From NCBI GenBank assembly GCA_023055355.1, contig JALJCS010000050.1, positions 2,852,001-2,916,000 of the forward strand: a stretch of 64,000 nt of DNA. Direction: 5' to 3'. The translations under genes and the position numbers were made by a program. The notes beneath the pieces are model-generated. The model had not been told where the DNA came from. It saw nothing but the letters and a program-made list of their open reading frames with translations, and did no database searches. This DNA is from Agelaius tricolor (lineage: Eukaryota; Chordata; Aves; Passeriformes; Icteridae). Position 1 is the stretch's first letter. Every line of letters begins with the position of its first letter. Of the stretch, positions 10,568 to 64,000 are shown piece by piece.

Positions 10568-11660
10568 GGAGACAGCCAGGATGGCACCAAGGATGAGAAG
10601 CTCTTCCTCAGCCTGGCCACTGGAGGCTGAAGGTGATGGACTTTGATTCTGGCACCTTCTTCAAAGCCAGACTCCACAGGGAATTTGCAGATGAGTCCCC
10701 ACCCGGGGAAATGCTGCCAGATTGGGCATGGCCCAGCCTGGCTGGGAACCAAAGGTTCCCCCTTTGCTGGGGCAGATGCAACTCATTCTTCAGTCACTGC
10801 CCAGCTGCTTTTGGCAGGGCTGGAGCATGGGCTGGGCTGGGTACGAAATGGGAGTGGGCTCCTGGCCCTGCCAACAGCCCCCAGCAGCCACCGTGGCCTG
10901 GGCTGGGGCTGGGGCTGGGGCAGCCAGCCCGACACAAACAAAGCCCCATGGTGGGAGCAGAGGTGGGACTCCAGAAGCTGTGCATGGGCTGCTTTGCTCT
11001 GCAGGCAATGAAGGGCTGGGCTGCTGCATTGCCCTTGTTTGCTTTGGCATCACCATGATTTTGGGGGCAGTGCTGGGAGTGAGAAAGTGTGGGCTTCCCT
11101 CAGCCATGGCTGGGTTTTTCCCTACCATGTAGGAGTTGGGCCTTCCTCAAGGCCCTGACAGAGATAAGAGTTTTTCCTGTTTTTCTTGTTTTCCCTTTTT
11201 GTCTCTAATATCTTTTCAAGAATGTGTTGTTTGTTTTTCCAGAGGAAGCGTTCTAGGTGGTCCAGTGTGGATGGGCAAGTGCTTGGGAGCAGCTGTGGCG
11301 TGGATGGGCGGTGGCCTTGGAGAAGGCTGAGGCCATGGTTTGGGAGCAGCTTTTCTTGCATCCGTGGCTGGCGTGAGGTGGGTCCCTGTGTGCTTGGCAG
11401 GGTGGGATCAGAGCTTTTGGGAGATGGCAGCGAGCACAGGAGCATCCTGCTCTGGGCAGCTGCTGAGGGCTGGATGTGCCGTGGCTGGCTGCAGGCTGGG
11501 CACATGTCCTGCTCTCCTGCTCTGCTGCCAAAGGCAGCAGGGATGGGCAGCTCTGGGCACAGCTCTGGGCACAGCCAGCATGGCCTGGGCACCGCAGGCC
11601 TTGGCACAAGGGCACAGGAGCCCTCAGCTGACGGGCACTTTCTGCTTTCTCTCCTTGCAG
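10568..11660 (+). pseudogene. PIM1-like pseudogene remnant
   Basis: At about 10585-10691 a decayed copy of the PIM exon with the HRD-to-DFG segment is visible: KDE, then LATGG, a frameshift with stops, then VMDFDSGT and a degraded end at the same splice position (AATTTGCAG). DFG has become DFD. The following 10720-11100 resembles the intron at 9049-9693 of the intact gene, and 11430-11655 resembles its last intron, ending at CTTTCTCTCCTTGCAG. The exons that should lie between and after are missing. It is a second, non-functional PIM unit in tandem with the intact gene. Its downstream part continues into the inverted duplication. Confidence 0.6.
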
Positions 11661-13523
11661 CCGGGCTCTGCGGCTGCTGAGGCTGCTCTGGGCTCTGCCA
11701 GGGCTCTGCTGGGCTCAGCCCTGGGCCCAGCTGGGCTGGCTCTGCCCTCCCATTGCTCTGACAGCTTTGCATCAGACGAGCCCGTTGCGAGCACAGCGCC
11801 TGAGCTTTCTGCTTTGGCAGCTGAGTGAGACTCTGCTGCAGGCCCAGAGATTGCAGCTGGGGACACACATCCAATTGGCAAGAACCCAAACCCTCCACAG
11901 TCCCAGCTGAACGCCTGGATCTGCACAGGGTGTTTGTCTGTCCCATTCTTCCTTCTTGATTGGCTGGAATTGTGCAATTGCACTTTCTTCCTCCTCTAGA
12001 AGTGCCTGAGTGGGCCAAAGCTGGCGAGTGGGCCGTGTTCCTGAGGCAGTGCAGTCTGGAGCTGATGGATGGAGAATTGCCCTTCTGCACTGCCAAATCA
12101 GAGCAAAAAGCCCTAAGTGGCACTTTGTGTCTCTAAGAAATCCCTGACAGTTTCAAAGGGAATGTGCAGCTCCTTGCCAGGCTGAGAAGGAAGGTCATCT
12201 TCTAAAGGATTTGGGCTTTGACAGAGTTTCCATTCCCAGTCCTGCTTGGAGCGGGAAGGGCACAAAGCAATTTCCTCTTGCTTTGAGCACAATTTCAAAT
12301 GGCAATGTTGGAAACAAAGCCCAAAATCTTTTAAAAGGCTGCTGGGATAAGTAAGATGGATCCATGCCATCAGCACATTTACAATGTAAATAACTGAGTT
12401 CCCCTTTAAAAAAGATCATTTACCTCTTAATGCAAAGTTTCAGAACTTTTTCACTAACACTTGGGTTTTGTTTTCATCTTTCACATTTTATATAGTTTTT
12501 CTTCTTTTTCCTTTTTTTCCTTTAAATAGAAAACATGTCCTACAGAAGGAGTGTCCTTTGCTCCTGGTTCCTGTGTGGAGGAGCTCCCTTGCTGCTGGCT
12601 GAGCTGCTCAGGCAGAGCCCGGCAGCTCCTGGCCCTGCAGGGCTGAGGCTTTTCCCCATTGCTGGGCACAGACTGATGGAGCAGCACTGCTGAACACGGG
12701 CACACACAGAGGGCCCAGCAGCAGCTGCCTTTGGCCACCTGAGGCTCCAAGGCCCAACCTCTGAGCAGCTAGGGCTGGAAGAGACTTGCAGCATCTGATC
12801 CCTGACTCTGGGCCAGGGCTGCACAAATGACCCCACAGCAGCGGCAGCAGCAGCAGATGGAGCTGACTTTCAGCACAGCTCCTGCCCCTGTTCCCTCCCG
12901 TGTGCAGTGGTGTCACAGCAGCCTGAGGCACCTGGGAGCCCCCAGTGCCAGCAGGGACTTGAGATGGCAGCCCTGGGCTCCTGGAGGCTGTGCAAGGAAC
13001 GGAGCTGGGCACTCCCTGTCCATGGGGAGCTTGCAGATGGAAAAGGCTGCTGTGCCCAGGCAGCTCCAAGGGCACGGAAAGGAGGCTCTGGAGCACTGGA
13101 TCTGTGCCAGTGCCACAGTCCTGGGCAGCAGCCAGCCAGCCCTGGGGGAACAGAGGGCACAGCAAGAGGGACAGAAGCAGGCAAGGGCAGAGACTGGGAA
13201 GAGCCAGGCCCCCGAGCAGGAACAGCTGCTCCATTGCACTCTTGGAGAAAGCTCTTGGCTGCTTCAAAGTGCTGAAAGGCGTGAAGGGCAGAGAGGAGGC
13301 CACAGCAAACAATGCTCCTGTTTACACAGCCTCCCCTCTCCATGTCCCAGAAGGAATTGGATGGGCTGGATTCGTCTCTCCGAGTGGTCTCGTTCAGCAT
13401 GAGCAGCTCAGCACCAGGAGCTGAAGGAGCTGAAGCCTCAGGCCACAGGAGCTGGGCAAGAGGGAACTTTTGGAGCAAAGTAATGCTGCTAAAATAGCCC
13501 CAGCTGAATGCAGCGGATATCAT

Positions 13524-13640
13524 CATGGAATCACAGAATCCTTTCTGTTGGAAAAGCCCTCTGAGCTCACCCAGTGCAGCCGCTCAGCCAGCAGTGCCAA
13601 GCCCAGCACTAAAGCACGTCCCTGAAGTGCCAAGGCCTGG
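13524..13640 (-). mobile_element. CR1 LINE 3' fragment, arm A
   Basis: The GGAATCACAGAATCC... phrase followed by GTTGGAAAAGCCCTCTGAG is the reverse complement of the usual avian CR1 3' tail. It has a counterpart in arm B at 61350-61440, so it was present before the duplication. Confidence 0.65.
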
Positions 13641-14747
13641 ACAGCAGCCCTGAGTGAGGCCTGGACAGCAGGCCCTGAGCCCAAGGTGGCCTCTGGATGA
13701 ACCTTCCAAGCAAAGGTTATCTTTGTATCTGCTCCCTGATGAGATATGCATGGTCATTAGCACTGTGATAGATGTAGCCACTCCTTAGTGAAACCTGTAT
13801 GGACCTTTGTGTATTTAGAAGCCAGAGAAGGCCATGAAATCTGACATCTGGCCTTGTGTGGGGCTGAAGGATCAAAGTCAGCTGCCTTGGCTCCTCCTTG
13901 AGGCCTGGCCAGGCTTTGGGAGGGAGCCAAGAGGAGGATGAAAGCAGGTGTTGCCACACTAGCAGTGCTGTCAGTTTGTTCATGCAGCACTGTCAGAGCT
14001 GGGCCCTCTCCCAGCGGGCTTGGAGCCTCAGCTGGGGCTGGAGGCACCTGCAGGAATTGCCAGTGCCCAGGAGTGGCTCTGCAGCCCTTGGCTGTGACAG
14101 CTTCCCCAGCTGCTGTGTGCATCTGGGGGATGGCAAAGGCTGAGGGGAAATGCTGCTGCATCTTTCTTAATCACTGCAGGCAATCTTTGGTGGGGATGGT
14201 TGGGTGCATTGCTGAGCTGCTCCTTTTGTGATTCTTTGCTGCTCTGAACTGCAGGAAATGACACTGATTCCTCCAGTTGGAGTCTGTGTCTTTGGTGCTG
14301 ACTTTGGCCACTGGTCAAACCAAACTGGCCCAGTCTGGCCAGATCCCAACCAAATGTCACTTGTTCAATGTCAATGTGAGGCATCAGTGCCATCAGAAAT
14401 TCCCAGATGGGAAGCCCTTCCCTGGAGTTCCCTGGCTCTGGAGTAGGCTGAGGTGGGAGCCCCGTGGGAGCAGTGGGGCAGTCGGGTAAAAGAAGCTGCA
14501 GCCCTGGATGTCTTCAAATGCATCCAAAAACTGCACATGGAAAAGGAAAAGGACTTGTGGGTTTGGGCAGACAAAGATGAATTTGTTAAGAGTCCATTGG
14601 AAACAGCAGCTTCAGAAGGAACAATTATTGTTGGAATGCTCCCACATGGAGCAAGAGAAGAAGGTTTTAATCTTGAGCTCAGCTGCATTTGTACCAGTGA
14701 AATATCAATATAATAACTAACTATATGTATTTTTTGTATATTAAGAC

Positions 14748-14850
14748 CTTAATATATATATATATCTGTATATTTATATATATATATTTTATATATATAT
14801 GTCTGTATCTATCTGTCTATATGTATATCAATATGTATATCTACATATGA
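14748..14850. repeat. AT-rich microsatellite, arm A
   Basis: This is (TA)n with TATC/TGTA interruptions. The arm B counterpart (60060-60235) is clearly longer and accounts for most of the length difference between the arms. Confidence 0.85.
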
Positions 14851-15104
14851 AATAATAATAATGTGAAATAGTGCTGACAGTACTAATTTGGTAGCTTTGG
14901 CTGCTCAGGGATGTAACACTAAATACCCTACGGAACAGGATTGGCCCGGACCATAATGTCAGTGGTCAACTATGTGAGATTGTAGACAATGAAAAAAGGA
15001 GGAAGGGATGAAATTGGCTATTTTCCCAGGGTTTGGTGATACTGTGATGCAGAGTGCTTTGTCTATTGCTGTGAAAAATACAGGGATGAAGCCTGCAGGG
15101 TTTT

Positions 15105-15930
15105 TCATGTACCAGACCATGCACAAGCTGCAGGATTGGTTGAACGGGTGAAGGGGTTGTTAAAAGAGCAGTTGAAAAAATGAGGAGATGGGAACCTTTG
15201 CCCATGGAGAACCCATCTCCCAGATGTGCTCCATGCCCTGAACAATGGCCCACGGGGGAAATGGAAACCCCCTGGCTGTGCACGGCTGCCCCCAATTTGC
15301 AAATCCAACCATGGGCAGTGAGACTTGGACTGCCTGGGAAATTGTTCTGGCTGTGATGGCCCCTGGCAGGGCCAGCCCAGAGGCTGCAGGGCTGGGCCTT
15401 CATGCATTGGAATTCATGAGGAGAAATTCAAAACCAATGAGAGCCATCAATACTGAAACAGGAATTCAGATTCCTCCAGGACACTTTGCTTTGGTAACTG
15501 CTCCCTTGGAGCTTGGCCTTGCAAAGTGTTCATGTCATGGCAGGAGGAATTGATGCAGAATATCCAGGAGAAATTACAGTAATTCTGTGAAACAATAGTG
15601 ACCAGGATTGGATTATTCAACCCCATGACAGGGTAGCACAATTATTGATATTGCAATTTTGAGAACGATTGTGAAAAAAGGAGCTCCAGCTCCAATCACC
15701 ACCGTTTGTGGAGATAAAGGGTTTGGATGCAGCAGTCCTAATAATGGAGCCAGAGTGTGGGTCCGGAGGCCAAATGGCCCTCCCGAGGCAGCTGAAGGAG
15801 CAGCTCCTGGGAAAGACAACTCGGAGTCCTGAAAGCTGGGCAGGAACAATGGGAATGTGTCCCTGCAGCCAAGGATTGTGTGTGAGAACAAGTAGATGTG
15901 ACAGGATATTGTTTTACACATGCTGCCAGA
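15105..15930 (+). pseudogene. ERV-L pol 3' end: integrase tail and dUTPase
   Basis: Near 15115-15175 the frame reads AQAAGLVERVKGLLKEQL, the conserved integrase segment around the catalytic glutamate. From about 15380 all dUTPase landmarks appear, split over frames: AAGLGLHA (motif 1), [17 protein letters not shown] (region of motif 2), [11 protein letters not shown] (motif 3, near 15545), HDRVAQLLILQF (motif 4, near 15625) and GDKGFGCSS (motif 5, near 15715). Frameshifts and stops, including a TGA near 15590, disrupt it, and the arm B copy shares the same break after the CHG segment. dUTPase removes dUTP; ERV-L elements encode it downstream of integrase. This copy is dead. Confidence 0.65.
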
Positions 15931-16869
15931 CCAAATCTCCCTGTTTGCCCCAAGGGCCCCTTTGGCAAATGCTCTGATCCACGGGGCTCCATGGGAAGGC
16001 TGCTGTGACACTGAGGGACTTGCACAGGAATTGCATCCAGGAGCCTGGGAGCCCCTCAGGGACTGGGACCCGGCCCCTTCCAGCCAGACGGGAAAGGGCC
16101 CCCCAAGCCTTGTTAGCCCCAGACAACATGGTAAAGCTGAACAGCAAAGGGCCTGGGGGCATTATTCTGGAATTAAAAAGGTGCCAGCTCCATGGACAAC
16201 AGAATTCTTGTTCCTAACTCCAAGGAGATTGAGAAAAAAGAATGAAGAACGGTGTCACTGAAGCACTACTGATGTCTGTAGGTGTACCTTGATAGTCAGC
16301 CAGAATCTTTGTCTGCCACAAACACCTCTAGTGTTTGACCAAGGGGTTAGTCATCAAAATGTAATGATGAGTTCTGATGGATTGCTGAGCTTCTTTTGTA
16401 ATTCTAATGATGATGTGCTTTGCTGAGCTTATCCTTTTGTCATTCTTTGCAGCTGTGCATGATATAAATGCCACAATTCCTTCAGTTGGTGTCTGTGTCT
16501 TTGGTAGTGACCCTGCCCACTGGTGAAACAGGGCCCCCTCTTGCCTAAGTGTTAGCTGGGAAGGCAAAAAGCCTCCCTCCAAAATTGCCCCCTTGCTCCT
16601 TGTTCCCCCCCTTCATACCCTGAGCATGATGTGCTCTGGTCTGGGCTGTGCCCGGGCTCAGCTGGGGTCACCTGTCCTGGCTGCGTCCCCTGCCAAGCTC
16701 CCCCGCAGCCCCAGCCCCTCCCCAGCGTGGCTGGACGAGGGGCAGGACAGGCCTTGGCTGTGCTGCAGCTCAGCAAGAACAAAACCATCTCTGCGTGCTC
16801 AGCGCTGTGCTCAGCACCCGGCCCAGCAGTGTCTCAGTGCCAGGGGCTGTGCCCTCAGTGCCTGCCAGG

Positions 16870-17460
16870 GCTTTCCATGGCAACTGCCAGGCCAGGTGCC
16901 CCAGGTGTCCCCCCCAGTGCCGGTTGCCATGGAAACAGTGCCCAGCCCTGCCCCTTTCTGTCTGGCTGACCTGGCCTTTGGCCCTGGCAGTGCCCTTGGC
17001 TGCTGGTTCCTGGTGCCCGAGCGGCCAGCGCGGCACAGGGCAGGTGGCCATGGCACAGCCCCCAGCAAGGGATCCCCTCTGGCTCTGGGCACTGACACCA
17101 GCCCTGAGCAAGGGGCCCAGGGCAGCTTTCCATGCCCACCAACCATCACAACGGCTCCGGGCATTGCTTGCCATGGCACCAAACCAAGGAACGGGTCCCC
17201 GTGGCCGTTGCCATGGCACCTGCTGGCACCCACCAGTGTCACTGCAATTGTACCTGGAACAGCCCTGGCACCGCTTTGTCCTCAGGGTTGCCATGGCAGC
17301 CCAGGGCAGCAGCAGCTCTGCAGGCAAGGGGCCATGGAACCTGGCTGCAGAAATGGCTCCTGGGGCTGCTTTCCAAGGAAACCTGAACTGATGGCGGTTG
17401 CCATGGCACCCAAACCCAGCCCTGGGGTCCCTGCAGTGTCCATGGCAGCAGCCCCTTGCA
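16870..17460. repeat. Cluster of CCATGG-centred palindromes (RFX/X-box-like)
   Basis: At least eight sites centred on CCATGG occur in 600 bp. Examples are TTTCCATGGCAAC (16872-16884), GTTGCCATGGAAAC (16923-16936), GTTGCCATGGCACC (17207-17220 and 17397-17410) and GTTGCCATGGCAGC (17287-17300), with weaker ones near 17046, 17168, 17332 and 17440. They approach the RFX palindrome GTTGCCATGGCAAC. The spacer sequence is GC-rich and irregular. Arm B holds only the part up to the equivalent of 17142. Binding is not shown by sequence alone. Confidence 0.6.
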
Positions 17461-17469
17461 ATGGCCCAC

Positions 17470-17955: not shown

Positions 17956-17959
17956 GAAA

Positions 17960-18660: not shown

Positions 18661-20871
18661 GGGGGGGATGCAGAGGGCAGGACAAGGGGCTGGCAGTGCC
18701 CAGCCTGGCTGGGGCTGGGCCAGGAGGCCCCAGGGCCTCAGCACAAGGTGTCTCCTCCCAGCCCTTGCTGGCACAGACCCTGCTGTGCCCCAGGGCACCA
18801 AGCCTTGGCTTCTCTTTGTCCCCAGCTGCCATCAGTGCCTCCAGTTCTCTGCTCTGCCTGGGGTCTGGGGACACTTTCTCTGTCGTGTCCCTCAGTGGGA
18901 GCCACTACAAGTCCCAGAAACTTTGGAGTTGGATTGTGACTTGGAGTTCTGCAGAGGCTTCTTCAGCTCCCTCTCAGGGCCTGATGTTCAGGGCCTGAGC
19001 ACAAAGCCCCAGAGGGTCCTAAAGTCCTTGTGCTGTGTCTGTGCTGCTGAGCTGGGCCGGGCTCCTGGCCCAGAGGCAGCTCCTGGCAAGGGCAGCAGAG
19101 CTGCAGAGAGACAGCTCTGGGCAGGAGCAGCTCCTGTGCACAGCCCAGCAGGGCTGGGGCACTGCCTGCAGCCAGCCCGGGCACAGCACAGAGGCACAGA
19201 GAGCTTCAAGCAGGCAGGGCTGGGAAGGGGCTGGGAAGTGCCTGGGGCACAATCACTGCCAGCCCTTGGCACAGCAACCTCTGGCTGCAGGACAATGCAG
19301 CTGCAGCTCCTGCACTGATCTCCTAAAGCTGCAACATCCCAATGCCTGCAGACTCTGGCAGTGCATCTCTCAGGATTTCTGCTGCAGGGGAGCTGAAATG
19401 CTCATGAAGCTCTCACATGCTGATCAGTCACAGAATATTTCCAAGACAAGGATTTTGATTAAAATGAGGCAATTTCCTAAGACTTTGTCTTCAGATTCCT
19501 ATTACTAGAGAGTGGCAGGGAGGGAGGATAATTATTAAAGGACGATTATGAATTATTAGTTATGAATTTTGGCAAGTGGTGCCTGAGACCACCAAACTGT
19601 TCCTTTTAGTGACCAGCAGGCTCACAGGAGATCCCTAATGTGCCTTCAGCCACTCTGCCCATGGACAGCAGCAGCAGCAGCTTTGCTGGAGCCATCAGGC
19701 TCAGTCTGAGCTGTCCTTTCTCCAAGCTGCACAGAGAAGCTGCCCCCAGGCAGTGCCCTGCAAACAGGCAGGGTTCTGTCAGGCCAAGGAGAGTGCACAG
19801 AGCTTTGGGCTCTGTGAGTGCTGGCACAGAGAGATCAGGCACAGGGAAACCCCTGCAGGAGGAAAATCTCCAGGAAGCAGAGAGAAGATCAGGGAAGGAG
19901 AGAAAACAGAACCCAGCAATGCTGTGGCAGGGAGAGTTGAGAGATGTGCACAGGATCCCCTGCAGTGCAGCTCCTCCCTCTGAACAAGCCCCCTCCCTCC
20001 TGTGCCCCAGCCAAGCCTCTGCCCTCAGGCCCGGGGCTCCAAGGTGTGCAGCCCCTCCTGTGCAGGCAGAGCTGCAGCAGAGCCGTGGGGCAGCTCTGCA
20101 GCCCCGGGCCCAGTTCCCTCTGCAGAGCACAGGGCTGGGAGCAGCTGCCTGGCCCTGGAGGCTCTGGAGGGGCACAGCTGGCTCAGGGTGACGCTGTCCC
20201 CAGGGCCCGGCTCTGGGCAATGCTGTCAGGGCAGCCAGGGAAGGAGCTGCATCTCCCTTCAGCCAATGCCAGCAGAAGGACACTTGCAAGTCCCTCTGAC
20301 ATTTCAGTCCAGGCTGGGAGCTTCACCCCAGCGTGCAAACCTGTCCTGGAGCATCTCTGAGTGATAAGATCCACGGGCAAAGGCAGAGGTGTTGTGACAC
20401 TGAAAATGCTGCTGGGTTGGTGGAATGAGCAACGTGAGTCCTTGGCTACAAAAGCGGAGCTGGGCTCTGCTGGATCCATCTGCTCTCACAGTACCTGGGC
20501 ATTTGTAAGAGGAACGTGGGAGTGTGAACATCCTCCAGCTGAGAAAAGTGAAAGCCCAGAGGAACTGCAAACAGAATGAAGTGACAGATCATCTGCCCCC
20601 AGTCTGCACTCATTATCTTGCCTCAGGGAAATCACTCTGTTCTACCAGAGGGCAGCAGAAATGCTCAGGGTTTCTGATATCCAAGAGTACCAGGAAGTCC
20701 ATGGTAGGAGCTTAAAAAGAAAACATCAGAACTCTGAAACACAAGAGCATGTCCGTGTGTATTACAAAGGAGGGTGTGTGGGAAATGGCTTTGATTTTGG
20801 TTACAGGTATCTCCTCTAACCCTTCACTGTCCTTTTCTCCATGAACAGGTGCCCACGTGCAGCCACAGCAA
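18661..20871. other. GC-rich flank upstream of the OR pseudogene, no gene recognised
   Basis: No supported exons were found. Part of this stretch (about 18815-18930, the GGGGACACTTTCTCTG region) resembles 22285-22385 downstream of the OR pseudogene, so the receptor is flanked by related sequence on both sides. Confidence 0.35.
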
Positions 20872-21652: not shown

Positions 21653-21689
21653 TAATTAGCATTGTCTCCATGATTGCAGAAGGCTGATC

Positions 21690-22410: not shown

Positions 22411-22414
22411 GGGT

Positions 22415-24957: not shown

Positions 24958-24971
24958 TTCCTGGGATGTCA

Positions 24972-32623: not shown

Positions 32624-32852
32624 TCAAAATTTAAAATTGGCCAATTTTTGTCCCAACATTTTGAAGCACAAGGGAGGAAAGGTGGAAAAGGCTCTGCAGG
32701 GGTTGCAGTTATAGATCTATAAAGTTCATATGTGTAAAGGAATGAACACAGTATTGAACACACTGAGTATGACAGAAAAATGCAACAAAGCACTAACTCT
32801 GAGAGAAAAACAACCCTGCAAGCAATGCCAGGGCACTGGGTATTTCTGCATT

Positions 32853-46190: not shown

Positions 46191-46238
<48 letters not shown>

Positions 46239-48565: not shown

Positions 48566-48623
<58 letters not shown>

Positions 48624-51600: not shown

Positions 51601-54600
51601 AATAAAAGTTTTGACAGAATTATCAGTGAAGCCAAAATTCCTTCTAGCAGGTTCTTCACACCATTTCTGTCCTCTCCTTCTGACAGACACTGCTGAGTTA
51701 AGTAAAAGCAGCTTCAGAGACTTTGCCCAAGAGTACCTGTGATCTTGCCATGAACACACACAGAATGACAGAGTCACAGAATAATGAGGTTGGAAGAGAC
51801 CTCTCAGATCATCGAGTCCAACCTCTGCCCCAACACCTGGGCTATGGCACCAAGTGCCATGTCCAGTCTTTTTATAAACACATCCAGAGATGGTGATTCT
51901 ACCACCTCCCTGGGAAGAGCATTCCAGTGCTTCATTATTCTTTTGGTGAAAAATTTCCTCCAAATATCCAACCTATCCCTCCCCTGCTGTAGCCTGAGAC
52001 TGTGTCCTCTGGTTCTGTCAGTGCTGCCCGGTGGAAGAGACCGACCCCACCTGGCTACAACCTCCCTTCAGGCAGTTGGAGAGAGCAATAAGGTCACCCC
52101 TAAGCCTCCTCTTCTCCAGGCTAAACAAGCCCAGCTCCTTCCAACGTTCCTCACAGGGCTTGTGCTCCAAACCCCTCAGCAGCCTTGTTGCCCTCCTCTG
52201 GATGTGCTCAAGCACCTCAACATCCTTCCTAAACTGAGGGCCCAGAACTGGACACAGCACTCAAGGTGCAGCCTCCCCAGTGCCCAGCACAGGGGCAGAA
52301 TGACCTCCCTGCTCCTGCTGCCCACACCATTCCTGATGCAGGCCAGGAGCCACTGGCCTTCTTGGACACCAGGGCACATTGCTGGCTCATATTCAACTGG
52401 CTGTCAGCAGCACCCCCAGGGCCCTTTCTGCCTCAACACTGTCCAGCCACACTGTCCCCAGCTTGGAACGTTGTAGGAGATTTTTGTGGCCAAAATGTGG
52501 AACTCAGCACTTGGACTTATTGAACTTCATGCTGCTGCACTCTGCCCATCCATCCAACTGATCTAAGTCTCTCTGCAGAGCCTTCCTTCCTTCCTTCCTT
52601 CCAATAGATCATCACAAGCTCCCAGCTTAGTGTCCTCTGCAAATTTACTAATGAAGGACTCGATGCCCTCATCCCCGTCGTCTATAAAAACATTGAACAG
52701 AACTGGTCCCAGTACAGAGCCCTGAGGGACAGCACTGGTGCCTGGCTGCCAGCTGCATGCAGCACCATTCACCATCACTCTCTGGCCCGGCCATGCAGCC
52801 AGTTCTGAGCCCAGCACAGAGTGCTCCTGTCCAAGCCATGGGCTGCAGCTTCTCCAGGAGTGTGCTGGGGGAGACAGTGCCAAAGGCCCTGCTGGAGTCC
52901 AGATACACAACATCCACAGCCTTTCCTGCATGCACCAGGCGGGTCACCTGGTCACAGAAGGAGACCAGGTTGGTCAGACATGCCCTACCCTTCGTAGAGC
53001 CACGCTGGCTGGGTCTGATAGCCTGGCCATCCTGTGAGTGCTGTGGGATAGCACTCAGTATGAACTGCTCCATTATCTCACCTGGCACTGGGGCCAGGCT
53101 AACTGGCCTGTGATTACCAGCATCCTCCTTCCTACCTTTTTTGTAAATGGGTGTCACACTGGCCAGTGTCCAATCATCTGCAACCTCAGCAGTGAGCCAC
53201 AACTCTTGATAAATGATGGAGAGAGGCTTGGCAAGCTCATCTGCCAGCTCCCTCCTCACCCTGGCATGGATCCCATCTGCACCCAGGGATTTACAAATAC
53301 CCAAGTGTCCCAGCAGTTCTCTGCTCACACACAGAGCAGGAAGGAAAACCACCACCCTTGTGCCCTTAGAACACCTTGAAAGTGTCCTACAAGCAGTGCT
53401 GGGCCAGTGGTCGAGGCAGGGAGAGCAACACACGAGCCCAAAGGGCCCTTTGGTTCACTTACAACACCCCCAAACACCATCCTTGTTTTGGCTGCATCAC
53501 AGTTTTCTTCCAGTCCTGATGGTGCTTTAATAGCTTAGGATTAAAAAAGTCTAAAACATTGTCAGGGATATGAAAATCAGCAGGGAGAGTGCAAGAAATG
53601 TGTTTTATTTTGTGGTAGCAAAGAGTGTTTTGTAGCTGCAAAGTACAGAAGCTATTGCAAAAAAATGAGCTGTACTGAGTTGTGCTAAAGCAGAGATCTG
53701 CTGGTAAAGACACTGTCAAAAGAATCCAGTGCTTGAGGAAACCACTGAATTCATTGTTTTACAGATAAAACAAAGCCAGACAAGGCAATGGGGATAATCT
53801 ACTTCAGTTTTCCAAAGAATACTCTGACTTCAACTCTTCTGCCCCTCAACAGAATATTCAGATGCAGTTCCACAAGGATACTTAAGTGTTTAAATCTTAC
53901 TCTAATTAAAGCTCATGGACTTCACAGGCACTTCAAACAAAGAAAGAACAACAGCAATATTGCAATCACCTTAATTTTTAAAGATTTGTTTCCAGGCATG
54001 TTCACTAAATCACAAATATCTCCTCTAAGTGATTCAGCTTTAAACAGGAGACAGAAAACATTATTCCCTTTTAACTACTTCCTTTAGCCCTGAAATATCT
54101 ATTGAATAATGTTTTAGGCACTGTTTGGGAACAAATTCAAAAGACCCCAAGGAATTAGATGTGCAGAGTTGATACTTAGCTGACCTCTTCATCTACTTCA
54201 GAGCAAAGTTTCACTTGCTGTGAAATTGTATCTGAAACATGAAGAGATTTTGATCAATGTCTTTCTAAAAACTGTAACAGTGAAACTGTATTTAACAGTT
54301 ACAGATATGAAACTGTGAGACTACTCATGAAAATTAAACCTTGACAACATATAAAAATCTAAAGAAGGTGCATGGCAAATATTCCAATCGTACCTGAATC
54401 AGTGATTTCGCCATGGTTCGACACGTCAAATGGCAGCTTAAAGTCATCATCTGAGCATCTGTTCAAACCCTGCACAAATTTAAAAATTAGTCCCTTATGG
54501 GTAGATTTGTAAAGAAGAATGATAAAATCCATAAAAAATCCCTACAGATGATGTGAAAATAGAATTTGTCATTAATAAAACAGCTGCCTACAAATTTCAA

Positions 54601-56302
54601 AGCCCAAGGTATTGGTAATGGCTTTGGAACTCACTTCTTCCTGCCCAGTGGTTTATCAAACTGTTGGTGTCCTGCAGTTTGATTTATAGACTGTGGCCAA
54701 AGGGGAGCTTTCAATGCAGGGAACTCAGCAGCTCCTGCCTGTCTGGGCCCTGGTGCATGGCAAAGGACTCAAGGAGAAAAATTACTTTTTTGAAGACCAG
54801 TAGTTGATATTTCTTTTTTGCTTTGCTTCCAAGGGCACTTCTAGACCATATCTGATTATGTTTTAGCATGAAAATACCCTTTCACAAGGTTTTTAAGTCA
54901 CAGAAGTTCATCCTGTAAACAGCTAACTCATCTGCTGTCAGAATATCCTGTTGAATCTCACCATATTTCATAAGGAGCTTCAGCATGAAAAAATAACTTG
55001 TTGAATTCCCATAACTCAGTGTGGGGACAGAACACTTTCACTGCACACCTGATCTGGTGAGACCAAGACACCAACACCAGTGTGAGCATCTGAATGGGGC
55101 CTGTGGGAATCCATCAAATCAGAGGGGTTTGGGAAAGCTGCAAAAGGCAGCCTCAGAGACAGCAGAACTGTGATTAGAGCCAAGCAGGAGCCATGAGATA
55201 GGTCAGCAGAAAAATTATTTAAAAAGTAGAAAAGTAAGGGCAAATAGAACAATGGTCTGTGTATTAACGCTTGTCTGGAATAACTCCCTAAGTTACAGAA
55301 AAGTTTATCTAGCGAGATATTAGGAAGTTCTAAGCTTAATAATGGAGCTCTGTGCATTGTGTTTTAAGGCTTACAAGAAGCAGGTATTGTATTCAAAAAA
55401 AAAAAGGCAAGCATTGTTTTAACCAAAGGTACGTGTGCTTACAGTGGTTGATAGAACTACTGTCAATATGCTTTTGCTTTGTGTGATTGGTCAAAAAACT
55501 TTGAAAGTAAGTTGTAACATTAAGTTCTTTGTCTGCTGCCTGGGATGTGAGCTGCTGGCATCTTCCCATTGTCATCACCGTGTAATGAGACTGATGCTGG
55601 AAAAGAAAACAGCTCAAGGCAGTTCCTCAGCAGTCCCGTCCCGTTTGTGATTTGTACACAGAGCCCGGCCGGCGATAGAGCCCTGCTCGCTCTCTGGGCT
55701 CAATTACCCACATCAAACGCGGACTTACAGCACAGAGCGGATGCTCGAGAAGATGATTCCCTTCAGTTTTGATAAAAACAACAACAAAAGTCTTTGAAAT
55801 TCAAACCGAAGATGTCTGTGCATATGCCACTCCAGGCATACGCACAGAAATGAGTCCAGCGCAGGAGCCGTCCCGGCCCATGCAGGGGCAGGTGTGTGTG
55901 TGCTCCAGGCCGGGGCTGTGCCGGGGCAAGGGGCAGGTGTGTGTGTGCTCCAGGCCGGGGCTGTGCCGGGACAAGGGGCAGGTGTGTGTGTGCTCCAGGC
56001 CGGGGCTCTGCCGGGGCAAGGGGCAGGTGTGTGTGTGCTCCAGCTCGGGGCTCTGCCGGGCACTCCCCGGGCCCAGCACTGTCCCCGTGTCCCCGGGGAA
56101 GGGCCCCAGCGCTTTCCCCGTGTCCCCTCCTCAGCCGCGGCCTCCAGAGCAGCAGAGCCCGAGGGGGCGGCCGGGGAGGGGGGGTTTGGGGCCGCCCTCA
56201 GCGGCCCCGCGGCCGAGCGCTCACCTGGGATCTGCCCGCAGACACCTGCCCAGCGCTCAGGCGCGGCGGCATGAACAATTTAAAGCGGTTTTCCTTCTCC
56301 AT
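32853..56302 (-). CDS. SYCP1: Synaptonemal complex protein 1, 28 coding exons
   Basis: Exons (high-low): 56302-56225, 54469-54394, 54231-54185, 51270-51106, 50715-50648, 50481-50408, 47691-47633, 47243-47174, 46582-46509, 46079-45971, 45450-45356, 45219-45035, 44587-44520, 43598-43537, 42482-42379, 41896-41779, 41523-41453, 40806-40725, 39892-39830, 39164-39102, 38252-38136, 37156-37046, 36378-36286, 35379-35305, 34868-34809, 33604-33458, 33168-33082, 32996-32853. They sum to 2565 nt, 854 codons plus stop, with all phases agreeing. SYCP1 is the transverse filament of the synaptonemal complex, linking homologues in meiosis. Recognisable segments are [14 protein letters not shown] at the start, [47 protein letters not shown] and the basic C-terminal tail ending KFFA. 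Between them is an almost continuous coiled coil. Human SYCP1 is about 976 residues. The equivalents of four human segments were not found (after residue 26, around residue 67, about 35 residues after the exon at 43537, about 55 residues before the exon at 33604), so small exons may be missed or lost. Three introns use GC donors. Confidence 0.95.
34953..35203. repeat. Direct repeat of about 75 bp in a SYCP1 intron
   Basis: CTATAATCACAGACTGTTACAAAG...CATTCAAAAGTC is found at about 34953-35028 and 35128-35203, with a few differences, separated by 100 bp. Local duplication in the intron next to the exon at 34868-34809. Confidence 0.8.
37595..37991 (+). mobile_element. Solo LTR, TGTCGCAGAC family, copy 2
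   Basis: This 397-bp LTR runs from TGTCGCAGAC to TGTCACA in the SYCP1 intron between exons 38252-38136 and 37156-37046, antisense to the gene. Flanks CCTAAT (37589-37594) and CCTCAT (37992-37997) are a 6-bp duplication with one mismatch. Confidence 0.85.
41451..41452 (-). other. SYCP1 GC splice donor, exon 41523-41453
   Basis: The exon ends CAACTAAG followed by GCAAGT, the ideal GC-type donor. The next exon begins A-AATGAACTG, giving AGA (R) and the expected RNELE. Using the nearby GT instead gives CAA AAA TGA, a stop. Confidence 0.85.
41777..41778 (-). other. SYCP1 GC splice donor, exon 41896-41779
   Basis: The exon ends CAACAAGAG followed by GCAAGT. The next exon starts GATAGTAAG in phase 0. 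The alternative GT four bases on would give AGA TAG, a stop. Confidence 0.85.
46190..46242. repeat. GATA/GACA (Bkm-type) microsatellite
   Basis: About eight GATA units are followed by four GACA units in a SYCP1 intron, after the exon at 46582-46509. Simple repeat. Confidence 0.9.
48236..49608 (+). mobile_element. Long solo LTR, ERV-L-like, 5-bp TSD
   Basis: This 1373-bp element begins TGTGGTGGTTTGACA and ends TGTCAAACCATGACA; these ends are near-perfect inverted copies of each other. Both sides carry AAATG (48231-48235 and 49609-49613). A 5-bp duplication fits ERV-L-type elements. The polyadenylation signal AATAAAG is near 49478, giving plus orientation, antisense to SYCP1. A (GA)n run lies at 48570-48622. 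No coding region is present. It sits between SYCP1 exons 50481-50408 and 47691-47633. Confidence 0.85.
51104..51105 (-). other. SYCP1 GC splice donor, exon 51270-51106
   Basis: The exon ends ATTCAAGAACTGCAG followed by GCCAGT. The next exon starts TTTGAAAATG in phase 0 (FENEK), matching the family. The GT four bases on would give A-TT TGA, a stop. The donor is less ideal than the other two because +3 is C. Confidence 0.75.
51758..53455 (-). mobile_element. CR1 LINE, 3' half with RT remains
   Basis: On the minus strand the reverse-transcriptase domain is readable across frames: [58 protein letters not shown] and then FAEDTKLG, where the catalytic FADD has become FAED. Further on, [10 protein letters not shown] and the tail [13 protein letters not shown] are standard CR1 sequence. 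The 3' end carries the TGTGACTC/ATTCTGTG-like tail at 51765. There are several frameshifts and stops. It lies in the SYCP1 intron upstream of exon 51270-51106, in the same orientation as the gene. Confidence 0.9.
55886..56070. repeat. 45-bp minisatellite, four copies, SYCP1 intron 1
   Basis: Units begin at 55891, 55936, 55981 and 56026 with GGTGTGTGTGTGCTCCAGGC. The period is exactly 45 bp, so plus-strand frames show a 15-residue repeat; I treat this as coincidence. It lies about 150-340 bp downstream of SYCP1 coding exon 1. Confidence 0.95.
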
Positions 56303-56840: not shown

Positions 56841-57506
56841 TGTGGGAAAAATGCGTATTTTATGATTGGCTTTTCGCAAATATTCAAATGATTATTATAT
56901 GTGTTATGTCAGAAAGTTATGCTGTATTAATTTTCTTAAGTAATGTGTTAAATCTAGTTTTAGGTTATAACGTAATGTTAAAATAGAAGCTATGCTATGT
57001 GAGATACTTTTTTTTTTTAAAAGAAAGGACTTGCAGCGAGATAGCAGCCACAGGCCACCTAAATCTTTCAGAGAAAGAGAATTTTTTGCTTTCCTATCAG
57101 AGGAAACGAACTTCTTCCTGCCTGCTCAGCCCTGAAGATGCCGTCAGGATTCAGAGGAAGAAGTTGACACTGAACAGACTCCTTGGTTTGAATGGAATTT
57201 ATGCATCGACACTGAACAGACTCCTTGGTTTGAATGGAATTTATGCATCACGTATGAGGTGTATGAATATGCAATAGGTTATTGTTTTTAAGGGTTAATC
57301 CTCTGGTAAAGTGTGTCTTTTTTCAGGCTTATTTTGCCAGAAAAAGGTACCCAGATGTCCGTAACTCTTTATTTGTATTGTCTCATATTGTCCTAATCCA
57401 AATTATCCAAGTTATTATTACTCTACTTATACTGCTCTTTTTCTAACCATTTTATTACTATGAAACTTTTAAAAATTCAAAAAACAAGTGATTGGCGTTT
57501 TTCACA
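56841..57506 (+). mobile_element. LTR, left half of a tail-to-tail pair
   Basis: The sequence from TGTGGGAAAA to TTTTTCACA (666 bp) reads as an LTR. It contains an exact 42-bp tandem duplication at 57166-57207 and 57208-57249, and its terminal 170 bp recurs inverted at 57581-57752. Target duplication could not be defined. Confidence 0.65.
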
Positions 57507-57580
57507 TCCTGTGACCCCCCAGTGTTGTAAATGCCTCCCCCAGAAACATCAGTACATGGGATGTTGTGTCTTGGGCACTG

Positions 57581-57752
57581 TGTGAAAAACACCAATAACT
57601 TGTTTTTAAAATTTTCAACTTTTCATAGTAATTAAATTGTTATAAAAACAGTAATATAATTAAAGTAATAAAAATTTGGACAATAAGGATTTAGGAGAAT
57701 ACGAGACAATAAGAACAAAGAGTTACGGATGTCCAAGTACCTTTTTCTGGGC
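57581..57752 (-). mobile_element. LTR 3' fragment, right half of a tail-to-tail pair
   Basis: The reverse complement matches 57336-57506 over about 170 bp with scattered differences (CCAGAAAAAGGTAC, CCGTAACTCTTT, ATTACTATGAAA). Separated by a 74-bp spacer, the two form a long imperfect palindrome. The fragment stops about five bases before arm B begins. Confidence 0.75.
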
Positions 57753-58399
57753 AAAAGCATTGTGATGGTTGGTGGCCATGGAAAGCTGCCCTGGGCCCCT
57801 TGCTCAGGGCTGGTGTCAGTGCCCAGAGCCAGAGGGGATCCCTTGCTGGGGGCTGTGCCATGCCCACCTGCCCTGTGCCGCGCTGGCCGCTCAGGCACCA
57901 GGAACCAGCAGCCAAGGGCACTGCCAGGGCCAAAGGCCAGGTCAGCCAGACAGAAAGGGGCAGGGCTGGGCACTGTTTCCATGGCAACCGGCACTGGGGG
58001 GGACACCTGGGGCACCTGGCCTGGCAGTTGCCATGGAAAGCCCTGGCAGGCACTGAGGGCACAGCCCCTGGCACTGAGACACTGCTGGGCCGGGTGCTGA
58101 GCACAGCGCTGAGCACGCAGAGATGGTTTTGTTCTTGCTGAGCTGCAGCACAGCCAAGGCCTGTCCTGCCCCTCGTCCAGCCACGCTGGGGAGGGGCTGG
58201 GGCTGCGGGGGAGCTTGGCAGGGGACACAGCCAGGACAGGTGACCCCAGCTGAGCCCGGGCACAGCCCAGACCAGAGCACATCATGCTCAGGGTATGAAG
58301 GGGGGGAACAAGGAGGAAGGGAGGATTTTGGAGGGAGGCTTTTTGCCTTCCCAGCTAACACTTAGGCAAGAGGGGGCCCTGTTTCACCAGTGGGCAGGG

Positions 58400-60780
58400 T
58401 CACTACCAAAGACACAGACACCAACTGAAGGAATTGTGGCATTTATATCATGCACAGCTGCAAAGAATTACAAAAGGATAAGCTCAGCAAAGCACATCAT
58501 CATTAGCAAAGAATTACAAAAGAAGCTCAGCAATCCTTCAGAACTCATCATTACATTTTGATGACTAACCCCTTGGTCAAACACTAGAGGTGTTTGTGGC
58601 AGACAAAGATTCTGGCTGACTATCAAGGTACACCTAACAGACATCAGTAGTACCTCAGTGACACCATTCTTCATTTTTTTTTCTCAATCTCATTGGAGTT
58701 AGAAACAAGAATTCTGTTGTCCATGGAGCTGGCACCTTTTTAATTCCAGAATAATGCCCCTAGGCCCTTTGCTGTTCAGCTTTACCATGTTGTCTGGGGC
58801 TAACAAGGCCTGGGGGCCCTTTCCCCTCTGGCTGGAAGGGGCTGGGTCCCAGTCCCTGAGGGGCACCCAGGCTCCTGGATGCAATTCCTGTGCAAGTCCC
58901 TCAGTGTCACAGCAGCCTTCCCATGGAGCCCCGTGGATCAGAGCATTTGCCAAAGGGGCCCTTGGGGCAAACAGGGAGATTTGGTCTGGCAACATGTATA
59001 AAGCAATATCCTGTCAGATCTACTTGTTTCTCACACACAATCCTTGGCTGCAGGGACACATTCCCATTGTTCCTGCCCAGGTTTCAGGACTCCGAGTTGT
59101 CTTTCCCAGGAGCTGCTCCTTCAGCTGCCTCGGGAGGGCCATTTGGCCTCCGGACCCACACTCTGGCTCCATTATTAGGACTGCTGCATCCAAACCCTTT
59201 ATCTCCACAAACGGTGGTGATTGCAGCTGGAGCTCCTTTTTTCACAATCGTTCTCAATATTGCAATATCAATAATTGTGCTACCCTGTCATCGGGTTGAA
59301 TAATCCAATCCTGGTCACTATTGTTTCACAGAATTACTGTAATTTCTGCTTGATATTCTGCATCAATTCCTCTTGCCATGACATGAACACTTTGCAAGGC
59401 CAAGCTCCAAGGGAGCAGTTACCAAAGCAAAGTGTCCTGGAGGAATCTGAATTCCTGTTTCAGTACTGATGGCTCTCATTTGCTTTGAATTCATCCTCAT
59501 TAATTCCAATGCATGAAGGCCCAGCCCTGCAGCCTCTGGGCTGGCCCTGCCAGGGGCCATCACAGCCAGAACAATTTCCCAGGCAGTCCAAGTCTCACTG
59601 CCCATGGTTGGATTTGCAAACTGGGGGCAGCCGTGCACAGCCAGGGGGTTTCCATTTCCCCCGTGGGCCATTGTTCAGGGCATGGAGCACATCTGGGAGA
59701 TGGGTTCTCCATGGGCAAAGGTTCCCATCTCCTCATTTTTTCAACTGCTCTTTTAACAACCCCTTCACCCGTTCAACCAATCCTGCAGCTTGTGCATAGT
59801 CTGGGACATGAAAAACCCTGCAGGCTTCATCCCTGTATTTTTCACAGCAACAGACAAAGCACTCTGCATCGCAGTATCACCAAACCCTGGGAAAATAGCC
59901 AATTTCCTCCCTTCCTCCTTTTTTCATTGTCTACAATCTCACAAAGTTGACCACTGACAGTAGGGTCCTGGCCAATCCTGTTCTGTAGGGTATTTAGTGT
60001 TACATCCCTGAGCAGCCAAAGCTACCAAATTAGTATTGTCAGCACTATTTCACATTATTATTATCTTATATGTAGACAGTGATATAGAAATATAGATAGA
60101 TACATATAGATATATGTCTATATATATCTATATTTCTATCTATATATAGACATAGATAGAAATATAGATATATATATAGACATATATATATATATATAAA
60201 TCTATAAATATATATTAAGGTCGTATTATCCTATAAATATGTATATAGTTATTTATCACATTGATATTTCCCTGGGACAAATACATCAGAGCTCAAGATT
60301 AAAACCTTCTTCTCTTGCTCCATGTGGGACCATTCCAACAATAATTGTTCCTTCTGAAGCTGCTGTTTCCATTGGACTCTTAACAAATTCATCTTTGTCT
60401 GCCCAAACCCACAAGTCCTTTTCCTTTTCCATGTGCAGTTTTTGGATGCATTTGAAGACATCCAGGGCTGCAGCTTCTTTTACCCGACTGCCCCACTGCT
60501 CCCACGGGGCTCCCACCTCAGCCCACTCCAGAGCCAGGGAACTCCAGGGAAGGGCTTCCCATCTGGGAATTTCTGATGGCACTGATGCCTCACATTGACA
60601 TTGAACAAGTGACATTTGGTTGGGATCTGGCCAGACTGGGCCAGTTTGGTTTGACCAGTGGCCAAAGTCAGCACCAAAGACACAGACTCCAACTGAAGGA
60701 ATCAGTGTCATTTCCTGCAGTTCAGAGCAGCAAAGAATCACAAAAGGAGCAGCTCAGCAATGCACCCAATCATCCCCACC
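58400..60780 (-). mobile_element. ERV-L-like remnant, arm B
   Basis: Duplicate of the element at 14190-16560. The dUTPase-like segment is at about 59100-59560 and the integrase tail at about 59745-59810, minus strand. It shares the disrupted frame of arm A, so the decay predates the duplication. Confidence 0.6.
60060..60235. repeat. AT-rich microsatellite, arm B
   Basis: TATA/TAGATA repeats, expanded by several tens of bases relative to 14748-14850 in arm A. Confidence 0.85.
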
Positions 60781-61349
60781 AAAGATTGCCTGCAGTGATT
60801 AAGAAAGATGCAGCAGCATTTCCCCTCAGCCTTTCCCATCCCCCAGATGCACACAGCAGCTGGGGAAGCTGTCACAGCCAAGGGCTGCAGAGCCACTCCT
60901 GGGCACTGGCAATTCCTGCAGGTGCCTCCAGCCCCAGCTGAGGCTCCAAGCCCGCTGGGAGAGGGCCCAGCTCTGGCAGTGCTGCATGAACAAACTGACA
61001 GCACTGCTAGTGTGGCAACATCTGCTTTCATCCTCCTCTTGGCTCCCTCCCAAAGCCTGGCCAGGCCTCAAGGAGGAGCCAAGGCAGCTGACTTTGATCC
61101 TTCAGCCCCACACAAGGCCAGATGTCAGATTTCATGGCCTTGTCTGGCTTCTAAATACACAAAGGTCCATCCATGTTTCACTAAGGAGTGGCTACATCTA
61201 TCAGAGTGCTAATGACCATGCATATCTCATCAGGGAGCAGATACAAAGATAACCCTTGCTTGGAAGGTTCATCCAGAGGCCACCTTTGGCTCAGGGCCTG
61301 CTGTCCAGGCCTCACTCAGGGCTGCTGTGCAGGCCTTGGCACTTCAGGG

Positions 61350-61440
61350 ACGTGCTTTAGTGCTGGGCTTGGCACTGCTGGCTGAGCGGCTGCACTGGGT
61401 GAGCTCAGAGGGCTTTTCCAACAGAAAGGATTCTGTGATT
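61350..61440 (+). mobile_element. CR1 LINE 3' fragment, arm B
   Basis: Duplicate of 13524-13640, ending in CAGAAAGGATTCTGTGATTG, the CR1 3' tail. Confidence 0.6.
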
Positions 61441-64000
61441 GCATGATGATATCCGCTGCATTCAGCTGGGGCTATTTTAGCAGCATTACTTTGCTCCAGA
61501 AGTTCCCTCTTGCCCAGCTCCTGTGGCCTGTGGCTTCAGCTCCTTCAGCTCCTGGTGCTGAGCTGCTCATGCTGAACGAGACCACTCGGAGAGACAAATC
61601 CAGTCCATCCAATTCCTTCTGGGACACGGAGAGGGGAGGCTGTGCAAACAGGAGCATTGTTTGCTGTGGCCTCCTCTCTGCCCTTCACGCCTTTCAGCGC
61701 TTTGAAGCAGCCAAGAGCTTTCTCCAAGAGTGCAATGGAGCAGCTGTTCCTGCTCATGGGCCGGGCTCTTCCCAGTCTCTGCCCTTGCCTGCTTCTGCCC
61801 CTCTTGCTGTGCCCTCTGTTCCCCCAGGGCTGGCTGGCTGCTGCCCAGGACTGTGGCACTGGCACAGATCCAGTGCTCCAGAACCTCCTTTCTGTGCCCT
61901 TGGAGCTGCCTGGGCACAGCGGCTTTTTCCATCTGCAAGCTCCCCATGGACAGGGAGTACCCAGCTCCGTTCCTTGCACAGCCTCCAGGAGCCCAGGGCT
62001 GCCATCTCAAGTCCCTGCTGGCACTGGGGGCTCCCGGGTGCCTCAGGCTGCTGTGACACCGCTGCACACGGGAGGGAACAGGGGCAGGGGCTGTGCTGAA
62101 AGTCAGCTCCATCTGCTGCTGCTGCTGCTGTGGGGTCATTTGTGCAGCCCTGGCCCAGAGTCAGGGATCAGATGCTGTCAGTTGCTTCCAGCCCTGGCTG
62201 CTCAGAGGTTGAGCCTTGGAGCCTCAGGTGGCCAAAGGCAGCTGCTGCTGGGCCCTCTGTGTGTGCCCGTGTTCAGCAGTGCTGCTCCATCAGTCTGTGC
62301 CCAGCAACGGGGAAAAGCCTCAGCCCTGCAGGGCCAGGAGCTGCCGGGCTCTGCCTGAGCAGCTCAGCCAGCAGCAAGGGAGCTGCTCCACACAGGAACC
62401 AGGAGCAAAGGACATTCCTTTTGTAGGACATGTTTTCTATTTAAAGGAAAAAAAGGAAAAAGAAAAAAAACTATATAAAATGTGAAAGATGAAAAGAAAA
62501 CCCAAGTGTTAGTGAAAAACTTGTGAAACTTTGCATTAAGAGGTAAATGTTTTTTTTTCAAAGGGAACTCAGTTATTTACACTGTAAATGTGCTGATGGC
62601 ATGGATCCATCTTACTGACCCCAGCAGCCTTTTAAAAGATTTTGGGCTTTGTTTCCAACATTGCCATTTGAAATTGTGCTCAAAGCAAGAGGAAATTGCT
62701 TTGTGCCCTTCCAGCTCCAAGCAGGACTGGGAATGGAAACTCTGTCAAAGCCCAAATCCTTTAGAAGATGACCTTCCTTCTCAGCCTGGGAATGAGCTGC
62801 ACATTCCCTTTGAAACTGTCAGGGATTTCTTAGAGACACAAAGTGCCACTTAGGGCTTTTTGCTCTGGTTTGGCAGTGCAGAATGGCAATTCTCCATCCA
62901 TCAGCTCCAGACTGCACTGCCTCACGAACACGGCCCAACTCGCCAGCTTTGGTCCACTCGTGGCACTTCTAGAGGAGGAAGAAAGTGCAATTGCACAATT
63001 CCAGGCAATCAAGAAGGAAGAATGGGACAGACAAACACCCTGTGCAGATCCAGGCATTCAGCTGGGACTGTGGAGGGTTTGGGTTCTTGCCAATTGGATG
63101 TGTGTCCCCAGCTGCAATCTCTGGGCCTGCAGCAGAGTCTCACTCAGCTGCCAAAGCAGAAAGCTCAGGCGCTGTGCTCGCAAGGGGCTCGTCTGATGCA
63201 AAGCTGTCAGAGCAATGGGAGGGCAGAGCCAGCCCAGCTGGGCCCAGGGCTGAGCCCAGCAGAGCCCTGGCAGAGCCCAGAGCAGCCTCAGCAGCCGCAG
63301 AGCCCGGCTGCAAGGAGAGAAAGCAGAAAGTGCCCGTCAGCTGAGGGCTCCTGTGCCCTTGTGCCAAGGCCTGCGGTGCCCAGGCCATGCTGGCTGTGCC
63401 CAGAGCTGTGCCCAGAGCTGCCCATCCCTGCTGCCTTTGGCAACAGAGCAGGAGGGCAGGACATGTGCCCAGCCTGCAGCCAGCCACGGCACATCCAGCC
63501 CTCAGCAGCTGCCCAGAGCAGGATGCTCCTGTGCTCGCTGCCATCTCCCAAAAGCTCCGATCCCACCCTGCCAAGCACACAGGGACCCACCTCACGCCAG
63601 CCACGGCTGCAAGAAAAGCTGCTCCCAAACCATGGCCTCAGCCTTCTCCAAGGCCACCGCCCATCCACGCCACAGCTGCTCCCAAGCACTTCCCCATCCC
63701 CACTGGACCACCTGGAAGGTGTCCTCTGGAAAAACAAACAACACATTCTTGAAAAGAGATTAGAGACAAAAAGGGAAAACAAGAAAAACAGGAAAAACTC
63801 TTATCTCTGTCAGGGCCTTGAGGAAGGCCCAACTCCTACATGGTAGGGAAAAACCCAGCCAAGGCTGAGGGAAGCCCACACTTTCTCTCTTCCCCCCTGC
63901 ACTGCCCCCCAAAATCACGGTGATCCAAAGCAAACAAGGGCAGTGCAGCAGCCCAGCCCTTCCTTGCCTTCAAAGCCAAGCAGCCCCTGCACAGCTTCTG

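Follow-up and report, generated by a model that had tools for sequence, protein, structure and literature searches.

Known systems and the locus

The palindromic ampliconic testis genes on the mammalian X and Y chromosomes have inverted arms of high identity that exchange sequence with one another. SYCP1, which spans the synaptonemal complex, is single-copy in most vertebrates and in human sits between SIKE1 and TSHB. A PIM1-like kinase expansion in the zebra finch was reportedly described by Kong et al. in 2010. The parts of a zebra finch study that bear on this locus describe PAK3L kinase arrays on the Z chromosome, with 200 copies in 10 clusters and unit medians of 268 and 59 kb in two resolved tangles, and report testis expression, co-amplified YTHDC2-like and HSF5-like genes and co-location with inversions (PMC13060935). 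Sections of a blue tit study place SYCP1 on the germline-restricted chromosome (GRC) and two SYCP1 paralogs on the A chromosomes, with PIM1 and olfactory receptors (ORs) multicopy on both (PMC10172847); in part of another report, SYCP1 figures in a list of positively selected zebra finch genes (PMC2911116). Here we describe a 64-kb stretch of songbird DNA, referred to as the window (C50:2852001-2916000, on the 3.03-Mb contig C50 of a 1.158-Gb assembly of 214 contigs), in which SYCP1 lies between two inverted arms, arm A and arm B. With a probability that we put at about 0.82, the window is one composite unit of a songbird kinase/SYCP1 ampliconic array and not a fresh local duplication.

With the mammalian X/Y palindromes the locus shares inverted arms, high identity and germline genes, but here the arms are ~98% identical and their homology is array-wide, not pairwise. 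As in the zebra finch PIM1-like expansion, a songbird kinase family is expanded, the PIM label being given here by name; the passages that cite that expansion mention no connection with SYCP1. Like the PAK3L arrays, as presented in part of that study, the locus consists of songbird kinase amplicons in long arrays with other genes co-amplified; unlike them, it has a PIM-like kinase, inverted composite units and SYCP1 as the passenger, and C50 is not placed on the Z chromosome, to which the PAK3L arrays are linked (PMC13060935). The blue tit micro-GRC, as far as the sections cited describe it, is similar in its extra SYCP1 copies and its multicopy PIM1 and ORs, and is unlike the present case of 23 SYCP1 copies in an assembly without sign of an extra CPEB1 (PMC10172847). 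Among the hits listed by full-text searches of open-licence PMC papers, a body of literature that leaves most subscription journals outside, none describes SYCP1 arrayed on an ordinary chromosome.

SYCP1 copies in the assembly

Our searches give good support to the conclusion that SYCP1 is a multi-copy gene in this assembly, in which they detected no intact SYCP1 outside the array. Twenty-three copies form the array (18 on C50 and 5 on C87), and one decayed copy, rearranged and with in-frame stops, lies on C21. Among the 57 of 259 candidates scored with the PF05483 model, one exon was found at 24 places (18 on C50, 5 on C87, 1 on C21) and a second at 23 (18 on C50, 5 on C87). A DNA probe from the N-terminal exons matched all 24 of its candidates, at the same places and none elsewhere, with identities of 96-100% on C50 and C87 (100% being the window itself) and 85% on C21. 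A probe of the C-terminal exons and 3' flank found 23 of the 23 array copies, 22 of them at full length, and elsewhere only short common-repeat matches (best 40 of 429 candidates). Neighboring units on C50 are 75-285 kb apart, and SYCP1 is on the plus strand in 12 and the minus strand in 6 of them, with 3 plus and 2 minus on C87. The locus is therefore an ampliconic array in the sense of many long, near-identical, gene-bearing units.

On contig C30, TSHB (C30:3730338-3731311) and SIKE1 (C30:3761615-3764398), names that follow from their families and from synteny, are separated by a gap of 30 kb, and neither PF05483 nor the N-terminal DNA probe matched SYCP1 on C30, including between these two genes. 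We infer that the array copies are expressed and supply the transverse filament protein of the synaptonemal complex, because the only other SYCP1 found is the one decayed copy.

Eighteen SYCP1 units on one contig, with a mean divergence of ~1% over the regions read and with differing stops, insertions and orientations, fit poorly with an inflated copy number and a spurious inversion produced by haplotigs or repeat tangles. Such an artefact, which we regard as improbable, gains some plausibility from the long similar repeats of the array, from the ends of C50 (both 1-kb ends were read and are not telomeric, and the left end is 96.6% identical to a stretch near the window) and from one C50/C87 arm pair that is 99.77% identical. 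The first places listed for the telomere pattern include none on C50, which is uninformative for this contig. Other songbirds also have several SYCP1-like records, and the Cor1/SYCP3 family, our control for assembly-wide inflation, occurs at a single locus on C3, where four exons match; all 6 of its candidates were scored. A misassembled haplotig, which the sequence-only reading had offered as its main alternative, is unlikely for the arm pair of the window given these 18 units, 12 plus and 6 minus.

The window gene and its relatives among songbirds

The SYCP1 model in the window (coordinates of all features are collected in the table below) has three GC donors, one of them weak; at that weak site all 20 of the other copies read have GC as well. 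Its identity as full-length SYCP1 with the conserved coiled-coil regions follows from the PF05483 exons, the 854-codon model and the identities to songbird proteins. The nearest proteins are songbird SYCP1 or SYCP1-like records (among the 120 listed of 636 at E<=0.001; 7989 were scored), and in a tree of 34 of these 120 and the window protein, the latter joins Agelaius phoeniceus and Molothrus ater in one group with support of 0.999, which points to an icterid host or a close relative of that family. It is 96.5% identical to the Agelaius SYCP1-like protein and 92.7% identical to that of Ammospiza nelsoni, the latter also 854 residues long. We located no counterpart in the window of human SYCP1 residues ~441-474 and 790-850; given that the Ammospiza nelsoni protein also has 854 amino acids, this suggests that both stretches were lost or are skipped in this clade, and some other songbird predictions keep extra residues there.

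Several songbirds have more than one SYCP1-like record among the 120 listed: four proteins of Poecile atricapillus come from a 1.85-Mb contig, those of Acridotheres tristis from three contigs, and those of Ammospiza nelsoni from a 3.99-Mb and an 18.0-Mb contig. Annotation isoforms occur among these records, which are leads and not gene counts. The Poecile and Acridotheres copies group by species in the tree, a pattern that points to repeated amplification or homogenization. The 18.0-Mb contig of Ammospiza nelsoni (P0027) carries a second, diverged SYCP1-like gene; at a guess, this gene may correspond on the W chromosome to the copy that lies here on C21.

Chromosomal placement

Spindlin and CHD1 are genes that we take to be Z/W markers. 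Spindlin occurs only on C4 and C21, and the assembly therefore looks female, with C21 probably the W chromosome; CHD1-like sequence is found on C27, C56 and C16, and the contigs are therefore not whole chromosomes. We posit that the array is autosomal. A CPEB1 paralog is a widely shared GRC gene; the CPEB ZZ domain was found at only four loci (C13, C16, C18 and C24), none of them on C50 or C87, with no sign of an extra CPEB1. This result, together with the lack of any other intact SYCP1 in the assembly and the presence of array-type SYCP1 in public Agelaius and Molothrus records (of unseen tissue source), makes it slightly less probable still than the artefact that C50 and C87 are GRC sequence, for which the parts of the blue tit report cited above provide a precedent: the blue tit GRC carries SYCP1 and PIM1 paralogs, and nightingale GRCs carry SYCP1 (PMC10172847). 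Linkage of C50 and C87 to the W chromosome has a marginally smaller chance again: the assembly looks female and some W pieces could lie outside C21, but by the PF05483 and N-terminal probe searches such linkage would leave males without an intact SYCP1, and the SYCP1 on C21 is the decayed copy, at 85%. We judged both placements unlikely on the spindlin/CHD1, CPEB and SYCP1 searches.

The inverted arms and the composite unit

In a self-BLAST of the window a single inverted pair dominates: positions 10972-17151 align to 64000-57760 with 96.16% identity over 6247 columns (73 gap columns, E=0) and a score of 10174 bits; the runner-up self-match reaches only 444 bits. Mismatch between the arms is uneven, at 0-5.5% per 200-bp interval along their length, and two such intervals reach 10% owing to an AT microsatellite (arm A 14572-14971), without which the arms are 97.85% identical. 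The inner arm edge (17151/57760) is sharp, and the outer edge is only the end of the window, with no biological boundary there: the 20 kb of C50 past 64000 (L027 and L028) are the inverse of window positions 10971-9732, 9738-6254 and 4333-2041, so that the inverted homology totals ~15 kb, broken up by insertions. One of these insertions, of ~3.4 kb, is bounded by two long terminal repeat (LTR)-like repeats that are identical over 376 bp and is therefore probably young; the lone element at 23430-23807 is a 91% relative of these repeats. The sequence-only reading is thus borne out in its description of arms that are a few percent diverged, wholly enclose SYCP1 and run on past the window, including the inverted PIM exon sequence that it had predicted beyond 64000.

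A 1.4-kb arm probe matches 31 places on C50, 4 on C87, 4 on C64 and 1 on C60, in both orientations and mostly at 98% (best 40 of 1064 candidates), and the arm and junction probes together place arm copies on 7 contigs among the best-scored places. The junction probe was scored at the best 40 of 3330 candidates. Arm B together with 360 bp of SYCP1 5' flank is present end-to-end at 17 of these places (12 on C50, including the window, and 5 on C87), and the remaining 23 break off at the junction or within ~40 bases of it. In a survey of 35 of the 40 arm-probe matches (those on C64 and C60 omitted) and the PF05483 places, five units, including the window, have the spacing arm B, 7 kb, SYCP1, 32 to 35 kb, arm A; other units show part of this arrangement, some at different distances. 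The junction itself coincides with a near-palindromic hairpin element whose two sides of ~175 nt are 80-87% complementary in three blocks, and inverted matches adjoin other junctions too. In the C21 copy the similarity to the SYCP1 5' flank stops within this element, which is partly present upstream of that gene, and no arm occurs in the 1.4 kb fetched beyond the end of the similarity. Comparison with this copy suggests that the arm was joined to SYCP1 later than the state that C21 represents.

Arm A is 97.97-98.40% identical to seven other arms of C50 and C87, in each case above its identity to arm B. Arm B is 97.64-98.17% identical to the same seven, three of which are nearer to it than arm A is, and the C64 and C60 arms are 95-96.5% identical to both. 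The placement of arm B in the arm tree is weak (support 0.52), the closest copy switches along the arm, and arm B, the one full-length example of its kind, is not set apart from the A arms; this pattern fits array-wide exchange. At typical bird mutation rates, and ignoring exchange, a divergence of 2.15% would take some 2-5 million years to accumulate. The explanation that fares worst, and that we dismiss, is a simple two-copy local inverted duplication with arm B copied from arm A beside SYCP1, as the sequence-only reading had proposed in calling arm B derived, since the sharp inverted pair at 96-98% and an arm B nearer to arm A than to 4 of the 7 other arms are outweighed by the many arm copies, unless these are artefacts of assembly, by one junction at 17 places and by an arm A that is nearer to 7 of 7 other arms than to arm B.

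For the composite array that we favor, we propose the following history. The base amplicon consists of a PIM-like kinase, a GC-rich spacer (the arm), an OR-like gene and a zinc-finger gene, present in many copies on several contigs. In a single event the 5' flank of SYCP1 would have been joined to an inverted amplicon spacer, with the hairpin element as the likely breakpoint, and the product would be a composite in which arm B and SYCP1 share one direction and are followed, after about 32 kb, by arm A in the other. Given one and the same arm-B/SYCP1 junction at 17 places and one SYCP1 3' flank throughout the 23 array copies, the composite appears to have formed once. Amplification in both orientations would then have brought it to 23 copies or more (18 on C50, 5 on C87), and the arms may be kept ~98% alike by exchange with one another. 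The mixed SYCP1 orientations are what recombination between inverted arms would leave.

Variation among the SYCP1 copies

We read 20 of the 22 array copies other than the window, the set excluding the C87 copies at 433706 and 656517, the latter of which has two TAG codons in its Pfam match. The window copy is an outlier: its mean identity to the others is 97.9% and 98.4% in two regions, compared with 98.7% and 99.1% among the others (copy 500k is left out of the first region, and 1257k and 2282k out of the second). Eight differences in the N-terminal region are fixed between the window and 19 others, and the C21 copy shares the window base at four and that of the others at four; therefore the window lineage may have branched off before the rest of the array, as far as these few sites can indicate. 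At the protein level, the Agelaius and Molothrus records have the array-type residue at 6 of 6 sites. At three of these sites the array-type residue is also the usual one in songbirds, and the remaining changes recur in other birds (two in Chamaea, one in zebra finch and one in Lonchura). Over 174 residues, in which 18 of the 20 other copies were compared, array copies differ from the Molothrus protein at 3-8 positions and from that of Agelaius at 4-8, the window copy at 10 and 10; from Ammospiza nelsoni the window copy has 8 differences and the array copies 8-12. The array copies being nearer to the Agelaius and Molothrus proteins than the window copy is, the split between window-type and array-type probably predates that of Agelaius and Molothrus, provided that the host belongs to neither.

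Most copies look open in the exons read: 16 of 20 are neither interrupted by a stop nor truncated across three N-terminal exons, and 18 of 18 readable copies are open in three C-terminal exons, one of them without its GT donor. Copies 1257k and 2282k, omitted from the C-terminal counts, have these exons displaced by ~7 and 11 kb. Coding variants between copies comprise 18 replacement, 2 stop and 6 silent changes over 535 and 134 sites.

Several observations count against the composite array reading. Copy number, structure and chromosomal placement are read from assembled contigs alone; C87 and part of C50 are perhaps two haplotypes of one region (an arm pair is 99.77% and an SYCP1 pair 99.9% identical), which would bring the count down to 18; and a further SYCP1 may possibly be absent from the assembly. 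Six of the 23 SYCP1 copies (at ~0.50, 1.26, 1.78, 2.00, 2.58 and 2.77 Mb) lie outside the 17 junction places, although at the 2.00 Mb copy the arm probe shows an arm terminating at the junction, and arm A is closer to arm B than most of the seven sampled arms are (4 of 7). Four of the 20 copies are damaged in the N-terminal exons, two by a shared stop, one by another stop and one by loss of the exon start. Finally, no purifying selection was detected among the 20 other copies in the six exons (pN/pS-like ratio 0.83, p=0.62), and coding variation does not differ detectably from noncoding variation (58 of 1098 noncoding sites; odds ratio 0.70, p=0.22).

The amplicon unit and other features

Nine sampled arm copies were aligned to the window, seven from C50 and C87 and one each from C64 and C60. 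The unit common to the seven starts at window position ~6.5 kb and ends, depending on the copy, somewhere from 20.8 to 27 kb; it includes the kinase, the arm and the OR-like frame and, in 3 of 7, sequence leading up to the zinc fingers. Alignments of the C64 and C60 copies cover shorter stretches at 92-95%. The name PIM for the kinase comes from the sequence-only reading, so that family membership is presumed by name only. The arms at C50:0.43 Mb and C87:0.35 Mb, the pair at 99.77%, both lack window 17785-19016 and may be a recent duplicate or an allelic contig. Pfam found no domain in five scanned open reading frames of the arms, and an Rfam scan at gathering thresholds gave no match in the window.

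Table. Features of the window and of the C50 sequence just beyond it
Feature	Position	Strand	Remarks
PIM-like protein kinase exons	8484..10010	+	PF00069 pieces 8484-9182 and 9438-10010; second below Pfam cut-off
Arm A	10972..17151	+	Segment of longer amplicon unit (self-BLAST, copy alignments)
1.2-kb segment	17785..19016	.	Missing in 2 of 9 sampled copies: C50:0.43 Mb (L013/L014) and C87:0.35 Mb (L019/L020)
Olfactory-receptor-like open frame in amplicon	20845..21684	+	PF00001, PF13853
LTR-like insertion, 378 bp	23430..23807	.	Missing in all 3 of the 9 sampled copies that align across the site
C2H2 zinc-finger repeats	27257..28109	+	Three overlapping frames, frameshifted here; C2H2 judged by eye
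SYCP1 gene	32847..56302	-	28 modelled exons, 854 codons, no internal stop; spliced alignment refined by hand
Near-palindromic hairpin element, 424 bp	57332..57755	.	Precisely at the arm-B/SYCP1-flank junction
Arm B	57760..64000	-	Clipped by window end; runs on beyond as inverse of 10971 down to 2041, with insertions
Insertion in arm B continuation	L027:1275-4657 (C50 just past window)		~3.4 kb between two LTR-like repeats

Retrovirus-like frames occur at window 1244-3145, with reverse transcriptase and reverse transcriptase thumb domains at 2021-3145 on the minus strand and a plus-strand frame at 1244-1963 that is gag-like by eye only. A second reverse-transcriptase-like fragment, at 52672-53454, sits in an SYCP1 intron and is probably a long interspersed nuclear element of the CR1 type.

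Implications

As a tentative and rather doubtful extension, SYCP1, an essential gene, may in this blackbird lineage have left its ancestral place between SIKE1 and TSHB and survive only as a copy-variable ampliconic gene that encodes two or more kinds of protein (window-type and array-type), multi-copy SYCP1 having arisen repeatedly in songbirds, perhaps in conflict with SYCP1 on the GRC or with another meiotic driver. The repeated-origin part of this speculation draws on the Poecile, Acridotheres and Ammospiza records. If the only intact SYCP1 lies in an array liable to changes of copy number and to inversion, both the dosage and the protein type of a synapsis gene could differ between individuals, and songbirds would provide a natural test of whether meiosis genes are in conflict with germline-restricted or driving chromosomes. 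The composite array would also connect kinase amplicons that carry meiosis genes with the recruitment of SYCP1 to GRCs.

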